A DNA stretch of 64,000 bases, from the NCBI GenBank assembly GCA_017355425.1, contig CP070233.1, positions 5,637,272 to 5,701,271 of the forward strand, written 5' to 3'. Each line of letters opens with the position of its first letter. Within the stretch, counting starts at the first letter, position 1. The translations under genes and the position numbers were made by a program. Below the pieces are notes generated by a model, which was given only the letters and a program-made list of their open reading frames with translations, was not told the DNA's origin and searched no databases. Below, piece after piece: positions 2,506 to 41,543 of the stretch. The DNA comes from Dolichospermum sp. DET69. Its GTDB lineage: Bacteria > Cyanobacteriota > Cyanobacteriia > Cyanobacteriales > Nostocaceae.

Positions 2506-2630
2506 AAATTTTGGATATTTTTTTAATTGAAAGTCTCTAAAGAAACAATAATACTTTTGAAAGCAACTTACCATAACCAATTAAATTATACAATAATACC
2601 CTTAGTGTTAACGCCAAAAAAGAAGAATAA

Positions 2631-2686
2631 GGGGGTTGACATCCGGTTAAAAATTTGTTATGGTAAACTTGATAAGGAAGAACTAT
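2631..2686 (+). promoter_or_regulatory. Copy 1 of a repeated promoter/5'-leader module (small-RNA candidate)
   Basis: TTGACA at 2636-2641, exactly 17 bp, then TATGGT at 2659-2664, followed by GATAAGGAAGAACTAT (2671-2686). The same layout with the same 17-bp spacer and the same GGAAGAACTAT recurs at 9793-9848 and 41395-41450. No reading frame with a normal start follows. The likely start of transcription is near 2671. Downstream, the stretch AAAAATGGGCGTGCTTTTTT near 2720 could be a weak end signal. The 2506-2983 interval holds nothing else I recognise. Confidence 0.55.
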
Positions 2687-3013: not shown

Positions 3014-3379
3014 ATGAAAATTCTTGATTTTGCTATATCTAGATTACAGTTAGCATCCAGACTTTTATTTGTGGTCTTTGCCTGTGCCTTCCTATTTTTA
3101 ACTACTGCTTTTCCGGCATTAGCTATCAGTAGTTATCAAAGTAACCCCAGGGAGGGAACAACACAACTATTAGAAACCCAACGCCAAACAGATAAAGCCG
3201 CTAAAGCTGCGCCGTTGGGACTGAAAGAAACTCAAGAAAAAACAAAAAAAGGACTTAATGAAGTTCAGGGAGATGCTGATATTGATAAAATGAAGAATCC
3301 CGAAAATTCACAACGTGCAACTTCAGCAACGGAGGAAGTAGAAGGCTTCTTGGAAAAAATTACAGGCAATAAAAAGTAA
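3014..3379 (+). CDS. Small exported protein, low-temperature-induced-like
   Basis: About 121 residues from the ATG at 3014; a TTG at 2984 would add ten residues but places the signal peptide less well. A signal peptide covers roughly residues 1-37 (hydrophobic LLFVVFACAFLFLTTAF, cleavage near PALA-IS). The mature part is short, charged and rich in K, T, Q and E, and probably helical. It lies just upstream of dps. A similar signal-peptide protein next to dps is known in Anabaena, where the pair has been annotated as low-temperature induced; I rest the label on that context and not on a domain. Function unknown; probably periplasmic or thylakoid-lumenal. Confidence 0.65.
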   Translation: MKILDFAISRLQLASRLLFVVFACAFLFLTTAFPALAISSYQSNPREGTTQLLETQRQTDKAAKAAPLGLKETQEKTKKGLNEVQGDADIDKMKNPENSQRATSATEEVEGFLEKITGNKK

Positions 3380-9321: not shown

Positions 9322-9558
9322 ATGGATAGACTAGAGTTTCCCGTAGAATACAGTTTTGATATTGATAGCAACATGGTAATTGCTACCATACCCCAACTCA
9401 ATTATATTTCTTCCTTTGGTCAAGATTTTGCTGAAGCAGAAAAAAATGTTACTGAAGCAGTATTAGCTTATTTAGAAGCATTAGAAAAACAAGGTTTACC
9501 TATTCCCAAAATCAAGAAAAATTCTGGAACAGTTCTAATTGTCGAGTTAGTTTCATGA
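9322..9558 (+). CDS. hicB: HicB-family antitoxin
   Basis: A 78-residue HicB-type protein with a degraded-RNase-H-like fold: FPVEYSFDIDSNMVIATIPQ is followed by FGQDFAEAEKNVTEAVLAYLEAL. It binds and neutralises HicA and usually represses the operon. It ends in ATGA overlapping the HicA start, so translation is coupled. The antitoxin-first order is the reverse of the classical hicAB order but is common in cyanobacteria. There is no obvious C-terminal HTH or ribbon-helix-helix domain, so autoregulation would need another DNA-binding surface. Confidence 0.85.
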   Translation: MDRLEFPVEYSFDIDSNMVIATIPQLNYISSFGQDFAEAEKNVTEAVLAYLEALEKQGLPIPKIKKNSGTVLIVELVS

Positions 9559-9779
9559 GTGATAAATTATCTGCTATTACTCCTAAAAAAGCATTACGTA
9601 AATTAAAGAAAGCCGGATTTATAGAAAATCATCAAAAAGGTAGTCATTTAGTTTTAGAACATTCCGATGGCAGAATGGTTGTATTACCAATGCACAGTAA
9701 AGATATTCCAATTGGCACATTACACGCTATTGTAATTCATCAAGCTAAATTGAGTTTAGAAGCATGGCAAAATCTCTAA
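9555..9779 (+). CDS. hicA: HicA-family mRNA interferase toxin
   Basis: 74 residues with the HicA double-stranded-RNA-binding fold. KKALRKLKKAGF is followed by KGSHLVLEHSDGR, whose His31 is the catalytic residue of the family, and by VLPMHSKDIPIGTLHAI. It cleaves mRNA independently of the ribosome when not bound by HicB. It overlaps hicB by four bases. All key residues look intact. Confidence 0.9.
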   Translation: MSDKLSAITPKKALRKLKKAGFIENHQKGSHLVLEHSDGRMVVLPMHSKDIPIGTLHAIVIHQAKLSLEAWQNL

Positions 9780-9792
9780 AATGGGAGATCAA

Positions 9793-9848
9793 GGGGGTTG
9801 ACATTTGCTTTTAAATTTGTTATCATAAAGTTGATAAGGAAGAACTAT
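9793..9848 (+). promoter_or_regulatory. Copy 2 of the repeated promoter/5'-leader module (small-RNA candidate)
   Basis: TTGACA at 9798-9803, 17 bp, then TATCAT at 9821-9826, with GATAAGGAAGAACTAT at 9833-9848. It shares the AATTTGTTA block before and in the -10 with the copies at 2631 and 41395. It lies just after hicA and fires toward the 3' end of dnaK, so any transcript of about 65 bases would run antisense into the dnaK terminator hairpin (9865-9898). Confidence 0.55.
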
Positions 9849-9864
9849 TTTAACCACCATAAAA

Positions 9865-9898
9865 AATACCCATCCAGTCATGGTGCTGGGTGGGTATT
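9865..9898 (-). terminator. Intrinsic terminator of dnaK
   Basis: AATACCCATCCAG (9865-9877) pairs with CTGGGTGGGTATT (9886-9898) with one G-U pair and an 8-base loop. On the minus strand the stem is followed by TTTTTT, the layout expected for termination of dnaK. On the plus strand it lacks a T-run but could still form the 3' end of the small RNA proposed at 9833. Confidence 0.75.
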
Positions 9899-41394: not shown

Positions 41395-41450
41395 GGGGGT
41401 TGACAATTGATTTTGAATTTGTTAGGATGAAACCGACGAGGAAGAACTAT
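41395..41450 (+). promoter_or_regulatory. Copy 3 of the repeated promoter/5'-leader module (small-RNA candidate)
   Basis: TTGACA at 41400-41405, 17 bp, then TAGGAT at 41423-41428, followed by GACGAGGAAGAACTAT at 41435-41450. The GGGGGTTGACA, AATTTGTTA and GGAAGAACTAT blocks match the copies at 2631 and 9793. A hairpin of the CAGGGAAT repeat at 41495-41514 would end a transcript of about 80 bases. It points toward the 3' end of pyrF, which is on the other strand. Confidence 0.55.
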
Positions 41451-41494: not shown

Positions 41495-41543
41495 CCAGGG
41501 AATAAATTCCCTGTCTCAGAAGTAAAGCCCGTTAAAAGCGACT
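41495..41543. repeat. CCAGGGAATAAATTCCCTG repeat, copy beside pyrF 3' end
   Basis: The hairpin CCAGGGAATAAATTCCCTG is followed by a diverged GTTAAAAGCGAC palindrome half. An inverted copy is at 42336-42384. It is positioned where a pyrF terminator would be. Confidence 0.75.

Follow-up and report, generated by a model that had tools for sequence, protein, structure and literature searches.

Putative mobile promoters are near-identical promoters that lie ahead of non-homologous genes and carry evidence of movement, and in cyanobacteria the NsiR1 locus is described as one tandem array upstream of hetF. As described in PMC3610870, NsiR1 of the Nostocales is a short RNA made from tandem repeats, with each repeat forming a unit, and the Yfr1/Yfr2-type non-coding RNAs are short, intergenic and in some cases multicopy (PMC2518516). 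The FopS RNAs of Bacteroides thetaiotaomicron, as described in PMC11697453, comprise 14 paralogues with canonical promoters, a conserved 5′ end, a divergent downstream part and a terminator; they include intergenic and antisense members, are bound by the protein RbpB, have a single-stranded 5′ end and bind near start codons.

Here we describe a module that occurs three times in the window, by which we mean the whole 64,000-nucleotide stretch of Dolichospermum sp. DET69 that was analyzed. We interpret it as a multicopy family of small-RNA genes, dispersed through the genome, alike in their 5′ tag and organized like FopS, a prediction from DNA sequence alone that we regard as the best and most likely of the readings tested and to which we give a probability of about one half. 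Like FopS as described in PMC11697453, the module has many paralogous loci per genome, each with a canonical promoter (25 in its own genome, 8–47 across the genus), and joins a conserved 5′ stretch to divergent sequence downstream. Unlike FopS, it belongs to another phylum, has another sequence and reaches 25 copies (8–47 in relatives) rather than 14, and whereas FopS is bound by an RRM protein, the module is known here only as DNA. The likeness is one of organization and not of membership.

All three window copies share one register, namely TTGACA, a 17-bp spacer, TANNNT and GA(T/C)(A/G)AGGAAGAACTAT, which is the layout of −35, spacer, −10 and tag given in the preliminary description. The positions it listed (2631, 9793 and 41395) are G-runs just 5′ of the TTGACA boxes, which start at 2636, 9798 and 41400. 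The features in window coordinates are as follows.

2617–2621, forward strand: A-tract of copy 1, UP-element-like, 15–19 bp 5′ of TTGACA
2636–2664, forward strand: promoter core of copy 1, with the −35 TTGACA at 2636–2641 and an extended −10, TG-T-TATGGT, whose last base is 2664
2671–2686, forward strand: predicted start of copy 1 at G 2671, placed from spacing, and conserved 5′ tag GATAAGGAAGAACTAT
9798–9826, forward strand: promoter core of copy 2, with the −35 at 9798–9803 and the −10 TATCAT at 9821–9826
9833–9848, forward strand: predicted start of copy 2 at G 9833 and tag GATAAGGAAGAACTAT
9865–9898, no strand assigned: hairpin of copy 2, AATACCCATCCAG/CTGGGTGGGTATT, 3′ of the tag, read from the sequence, predicted fold z −3.86
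41400–41428, forward strand: promoter core of copy 3, with the −35 at 41400–41405 and the −10 TAGGAT at 41423–41428
41435–41450, forward strand: predicted start of copy 3 at G 41435 and tag GACGAGGAAGAACTAT
41496–41513, no strand assigned: hairpin of copy 3, CAGGGAATAAATTCCCTG, between the tag and the 3′ end of the convergent pyrF, read from the sequence

Copies 2 and 3 aim at the 3′ ends of the convergent genes dnaK and pyrF, 111 and 123 nt away, and the hairpin of copy 2, at the 3′ end of dnaK, may be the dnaK terminator. The hairpin region of copy 3 (query positions 116–180) resembles a repeat matched elsewhere in these genomes, and the predicted fold of the whole copy 3 RNA was no better than shuffles (z −0.21). 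That no open reading frame with a proper start follows any copy, as previously claimed, holds at close range; farther off, copy 1 is followed on the same strand by an ORF with its ATG at 3014, 343 nt 3′ of the predicted start. Within the window, the 12-mer alone at up to two mismatches was found 13 times against a mean of 8.2 expected, which is within chance. Copy 1 also contains a 15-nt inverted repeat (93% complementary) between window positions 2568–2582 in its upstream region and 2652–2666 in its −10 region, and 5′ of it lie a DUF433 gene (679–966) and a deoxyhypusine-synthase-family gene (1167–2312). Directly 5′ of copy 2, positions 9322–9779 hold a HicA toxin-family gene and a small ORF preceding it, for which a family search gave no match.

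We profiled the module position by position in 243 unique copies, which were fetched by motif at up to three mismatches, with only identical copies removed and one genus dominant. Nearly fixed positions were those of TTGACA and TG.TA...T, together with G A Y R A G G A A G A A C T A counted from the predicted start; +3 was always T or C, and +4, apart from a single C, was A or G. Overall the promoter is consensus-like and of sigma-70 type, with an extended −10, TGNTANNNT; the spacer between −35 and −10 is loosely conserved, the stretch from −10 to the start is variable, and each position of the A-tract 15–19 bp 5′ of TTGACA is an A in 170–198 of the copies. Covariation among the variable positions near the start was not convincing in the same 243 copies. 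Contrary to the preliminary description, conservation does not stop sharply after about 16 transcribed bases: it continues weakly to about +28, and the A-tract extends it upstream.

An ungapped profile of 19 copies from the genome of the window lacked conserved outer ends, in agreement with the earlier view that the module is not a MITE. Likewise, unlike MITEs and REPIN/RAYT elements as described in PMC8049555, the module lacks conserved inverted-repeat ends in this profile, the one inverted repeat seen being that of copy 1, the only copy checked. Copies also occur in tandem, spaced 139–658 nt apart in the arrays read and often with the whole unit duplicated. This resembles NsiR1, whose repeats are whole units, but unlike NsiR1 as described the module is dispersed over many unrelated sites, with its arrays elsewhere in the loci read. 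Near elements, neither the tag nor its complement was clearly enriched in additional copies (134 non-redundant copies).

Although three copies is correct for the window, the genome contains about 25. Here the composite, unlike the 12-mer by itself, exceeds chance: the pattern TTGACA-N20..34-AGGAAGAACTAT matched 19 copies, every one of them 51 bp long even though the gap was free to vary, compared with none for the reversed pattern. A sequence-only model built on these 19 recovered 25 copies at E ≤ 3.3 × 10⁻⁶, with the next match reaching only 3 × 10⁻³; 19 of the 25 match by construction and six are additional. In the 6.04 Mb searched, the 11-mer AGGAAGAACTA was found 26 times, 23 of them inside elements, versus nine for the reversed control.

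Beyond this genome, all 16 genomes of the genus that were searched carry the module, with 8–47 copies each, compared with 3 of 44 genomes outside the genus (both at up to two mismatches). It was present in 22 of 386 genomes and 12 of 142 genera of the phylum at up to one mismatch, and in 61 of 388 genomes and 30 of 149 genera of the order at up to three, where the reversed control gave 0. Decayed copies are under-counted in these numbers because the motif scans tolerate at most three mismatches (six in the orthologous-group comparison), and sites were also fetched through a neighboring gene (dnaK, pyrF or ndhO) to offset the bias of fetching by motif. Outside family f1, which we take as Nostocaceae, carriers in the order scan fell into nine families, with copies read in six (f2, f3, f9, f12, f54 and f58). 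Among the 80 stretches listed, of at least 120 that matched, the carrier genus comprises Dolichospermum and its relatives (Anabaena, Aphanizomenon, Cuspidothrix and Trichormus sp. NMC-1), and other carriers are Oscillatoria sp. PCC 10802, Argonema antarcticum and metagenome-assembled genomes from Microcoleaceae, Nodularia and Oscillatoriaceae. Genome G316, taken to be Nodularia spumigena CCY9414, has 12 copies; start sites have been mapped in this strain (PMC3610870), and the starts predicted here were not found in the main text of that paper. For 10 of the 12 copies, manual calculation places the predicted starts at 2601912, 2774797, 2774991, 2775184, 2775377, 2841418, 3152208, 3152402 and 3152595 on the minus strand and at 4002244 on the plus strand. 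We tentatively propose, as a possibility still short of an even chance, that the module is an ancient and very large small-RNA family of filamentous cyanobacteria (f1 together with further families of the order). Tens of loci in each genome would then share the same 16–17-nt 5′ tag ahead of unrelated bodies, and the tag would be a handle for a predicted trans-acting factor, an organization unlike that of antisense seeds.

The 5′ end had been proposed as a seed whose targets could be predicted, which our results do not support. Against 1254 gene starts (~27% of the genome) the tag had 34 predicted strong duplexes below −12 kcal/mol, versus 74–131 for ten shuffled tags and 48 for the reversed tag, a deficit rather than an excess of pairing across the 1254 tested. 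The strongest predicted pairing match lies near another element (380813–380886) and looks like a degenerate reverse copy. Mean unpaired probability of the tag was 0.547, whereas shuffled heads averaged 0.598 and the remainder 0.521, and the three occurrences of AGGAAGAACTA outside elements are all within coding regions, in sense orientation. These occurrences, the deficit of strong duplexes and the slightly lower accessibility of the tag leave a simple antisense seed unsupported. In this respect the module departs from FopS as described in PMC11697453, its tag having no excess of start-region pairing and its 5′ end not being specially open. Positions +1 to +16 are constrained whatever gene follows, which calls for a reader of those bases; with the seed unsupported, this leaves recognition by a protein, either of the RNA, which we prefer, or of the start-site DNA, or else recognition by an unsampled partner RNA. 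As the tag is the part that stays fixed, we infer that it is recognized in trans.

Downstream hairpins were stronger than expected. When 125 non-redundant copies were scanned over the 120 nt downstream, their best 40-nt hairpins were at −10.4 kcal/mol versus −7.3 for shuffles (p = 7 × 10⁻¹²), with a smaller difference upstream (−9.1 versus −7.9 kcal/mol, p = 0.017) and a paired downstream/upstream contrast at p = 2 × 10⁻⁴; for these and the accessibility statistics, copies were thinned for similarity, were mostly fetched by motif and came predominantly from one genus. Hairpin centers fell at +40 to +80 from the predicted start in 40 of the 74 copies with a good hairpin, and the 55 upstream ones were evenly spread. 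Clear examples occur at ndhO (AACCGC...GCGGTT plus a T-run), where a similar hairpin is also found in two loci without the element (L334 and L338), and at pyrF in genomes G007 and G015. Strict hairpin-plus-T-run terminators were found downstream in 49 of 244 copies, on the opposite strand in 57 of 244 and upstream in 26–27 of 236 (only identical copies removed), a parity between strands which indicates that convergent genes own many of them. Compared with the FopS terminator (PMC11697453), the module thus has a hairpin peak at +40 to +80, yet strict terminators are equally common on the other strand.

A conserved RNA fold or consensus structure was not detected in 17 sequences. Searches of Rfam at the gathering cut-off gave 0 matches in the window and 16 copy loci, and in six Nodularia loci found only RNase P RNA, in control locus L355; at E up to 1, six loci gave four weak matches, all below cut-offs. 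A known Rfam RNA was ruled out on the basis of no match at the cut-off, as was a larger structured RNA at ndhO, where Rfam gave no match. Unlike the Yfr RNAs, the module has a tag that differs from the Yfr motif printed in PMC2518516. Literature searches with spellings of the motif returned no cyanobacterial paper by title among the matches listed, and no description of the module was found among those listed in the openly licensed literature, which is no proof of novelty.

According to the small-RNA reading, each copy would be a stand-alone short transcription unit consisting of the A-tract, the −35 TTGACA, the 17-bp spacer and the extended −10. Its transcript would start at G, read GAYRAGGAAGAACUAU and continue through an A/U-rich linker, often into a hairpin 40–80 nt from the start. 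The products would be intergenic RNAs of ~60–120 nt with promoter and 5′ tag in common and with different bodies and terminators, the terminator often being common with a neighboring gene. Recognition of the tag in trans would more probably involve an RNA-binding protein or an as-yet unfound RNA partner than pairing with many mRNAs, and copies would multiply through tandem duplication and dispersal, with wholesale loss. The small-RNA proposal of the preliminary description thereby survives without its seed, with intergenic position, the lack of a clear orientation preference, orthologous conservation, hairpins and the absence of Rfam matches making it the best reading tested; against it, the predicted transcript bodies lack conservation in family f1. 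Computation supplies the copy number, register, orthologous conservation, hairpin excess and orientation result, whereas transcription, the start site, an RNA function and the trans-acting partner are predictions. If correct, the reading implies a trans-acting partner able to recognize a short 5′ tag. The family would belong to bloom-forming cyanobacteria, in which RNA regulation has received little study, and would, to our knowledge, be among the largest multicopy small-RNA families per bacterial genome.

Genomic context was counted for 187 unique copies with enough flank, using a simple longest-ORF caller; orthologues were retained, most copies were fetched by motif, one genus was dominant, and loci that were too short or contained N were dropped before counting. 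Only seven of the 187 sit within an ORF. For 180 copies the next gene was on the same strand in 100 cases, convergent in 79 and absent in one, compared with 57 same-strand and 33 convergent genes at random intergenic control points, and there was no clear orientation preference. In the genome of the window, convergent neighbors include dnaK, pyrF, ftsH and homoserine dehydrogenase, and same-strand neighbors include alr, ndhO, a pdhC-like acyltransferase and an O-methyltransferase. The promoter is consensus-like, and at many sites it could yield nothing other than a short intergenic RNA. Outside f1, a convergent gene was faced by 11 of 12 loci examined (8 of 9 distinct sites; the 12 are part of 21 loci, L375–L395), an arrangement more in keeping with independent small-RNA genes than with promoters of neighboring genes. 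Similar O-methyltransferase genes adjoin the element on the same strand in f1 and convergently in genus g203 (L015, L370, L388 and L390), that of L015 being confirmed as Methyltransf_3 and the other three assigned by eye. No tRNA or tmRNA was found in 26 loci of the genome, apart from one tRNA-Gly that follows a weak match to the promoter in L045.

At orthologous sites, copies were either well preserved or absent. Fetched by neighboring gene, the dnaK site was intact in 12 of 16 species (0–1 mismatch over 26 motif positions) and without the element in four, with other DNA replacing everything until about +12 in G005 and G008; the pyrF site, fetched in the same way, held the element in 10 of 16 and had lost it in six. 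Neither site contained half-decayed copies in its 16 genomes, nor did either show a target duplication or a clean empty site, and the losses look like replacement by unrelated DNA. Relatives hold other genes 5′ of the dnaK-site element, so the 3′ side of dnaK looks like an insertion hot spot; more generally, similarity between loci of this genome and those of relatives often carries on downstream, and the upstream side often differs. At ndhO, 30 loci from 75 matching genomes were read by eye, with 10 of the 30 taken into the computed motif comparison: six were intact, in four genera and one with a single tag mismatch, two from genus g15 retained a recognizable promoter without the tag, and 22 had no recognizable copy. 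In the computed comparison of sites fetched by neighboring gene, L280, L281 and L283 were represented by a different copy close by and L331 by an unrelated stretch, so these four were judged by eye. The alr copy is common to CCY9414 (L360), and the methyltransferase copy to genus g49 (L370).

Across five orthologous groups, motif identity was 97.9–100%, compared with 65–98% for the spacer and 39–72% for the eight variable positions, which lie within the −10 and ahead of the start; aligned flanks were 71–86% identical, where shuffled sequence aligns at 73%. Only the ndhO, alr and methyltransferase groups span genera, members of the alr, methyltransferase and pdhC groups were fetched by motif, and in the dnaK group the spacer (97.8%) is conserved as much as the motif (97.9%), leaving no clean contrast. 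With the motif near-invariant and the intervening bases variable in place, the copies seem, on comparison of these sequences, to be kept by selection, and turnover of the bases between retained motif parts makes recent spread or gene conversion a poor explanation. The bases at +1 to −8 turn over faster than the −35/−10 spacer at orthologous sites, and changes at several of these positions are mostly purine–purine or pyrimidine–pyrimidine.

Three other readings account for parts of this evidence. If the copies were ordinary strong promoters of downstream genes, alike by ancestry and consensus and with a leader that aids initiation or stability, the consensus-like sigma-70-type promoter with its extended −10 would be expected, and in 10 of the 100 same-strand cases the element does start 38–53 nt ahead of the gene and resembles a plain promoter. 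However, 85 of those 100 genes begin at least 126 nt away, a hairpin separates element and gene at ndhO, and the tag is fixed regardless of what comes after, which together make this reading highly improbable; promotion of the next gene was ruled out as a general account, since 79 of 180 copies precede a convergent gene. We consider it somewhat unlikely that +1 to +16 acts at the DNA level, as an operator or initial-transcribed-region signal for a regulator or RNA polymerase, with the copies forming a promoter regulon and the RNAs incidental. The fixed spacing between tag and promoter, the strict pyrimidine–purine step at +3/+4 and the absence of both an RNA fold and target pairing fit such a site, as do the 100 of 180 copies with a same-strand next gene, which at some conserved sites is alr, ndhO, a pdhC-like gene or an O-methyltransferase gene. 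Yet convergent gene ends are faced by 79 of the 180, and by nearly all copies examined outside f1, where a regulated promoter would yield only short RNA, and hairpins come 40–80 nt downstream. Should the function lie in the DNA, a 50-bp promoter module that remains whole at tens of loci, its invariant parts separated by rapidly changing bases, would still be a sharply testable puzzle.

A putative mobile promoter or non-autonomous repeat, selfish or neutral and conserved in its core because the core is needed for spread, would explain why 8–47 dispersed copies occur with subfamilies and tandem arrays, show little orientation preference and often differ in upstream synteny. The module does share with mobile promoters and with REPIN/RAYT (PMC8049555) the dispersal of short near-identical sequences between unrelated genes; unlike in those systems as described, its conservation carries on beyond the start into transcribed sequence and is retained at orthologous sites. 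The module is dispersed and often lies before unrelated genes, yet 79 of 180 copies face convergent ones. Moreover, the motif is kept across genera at the same sites while intervening bases change, half-decayed copies, clean empty sites and target duplications were not seen at dnaK and pyrF, and conserved outer ends are lacking. Viral contigs gave no match to one exact pattern and phage and plasmid records none to a similarity search with copy 2, and on this one pattern and one query a phage or plasmid origin was set aside. We therefore regard mobility as an improbable explanation and retain the dispersed small-RNA family as the preferred reading.

Two further conserved sequences were noticed. 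In families f9, f12, f54 and f58, a second conserved block with consensus AGATTTCCATTATNTAANNATACC lies in nearly fixed register at +38 or +39 (22 cases; L375–L394, to +62); in genus g203 its reverse complement reads TTGACA-N16-TACAAT, so an opposing promoter is possible there. Separately, the genome of the window contains a second promoter-like tandem family on the forward strand of contig C1 (4163364–4164455, L469), whose strings had no match in the openly licensed literature. It consists of five units of the form TTGACA...TACACT that have GAAATCTGTCCGCGCATATATAG in common downstream of the promoter, and a related single copy lies at 493043 (L047). In genus g203, the second block also contains the string GGAAATCTGTC of this family, on its reverse strand.
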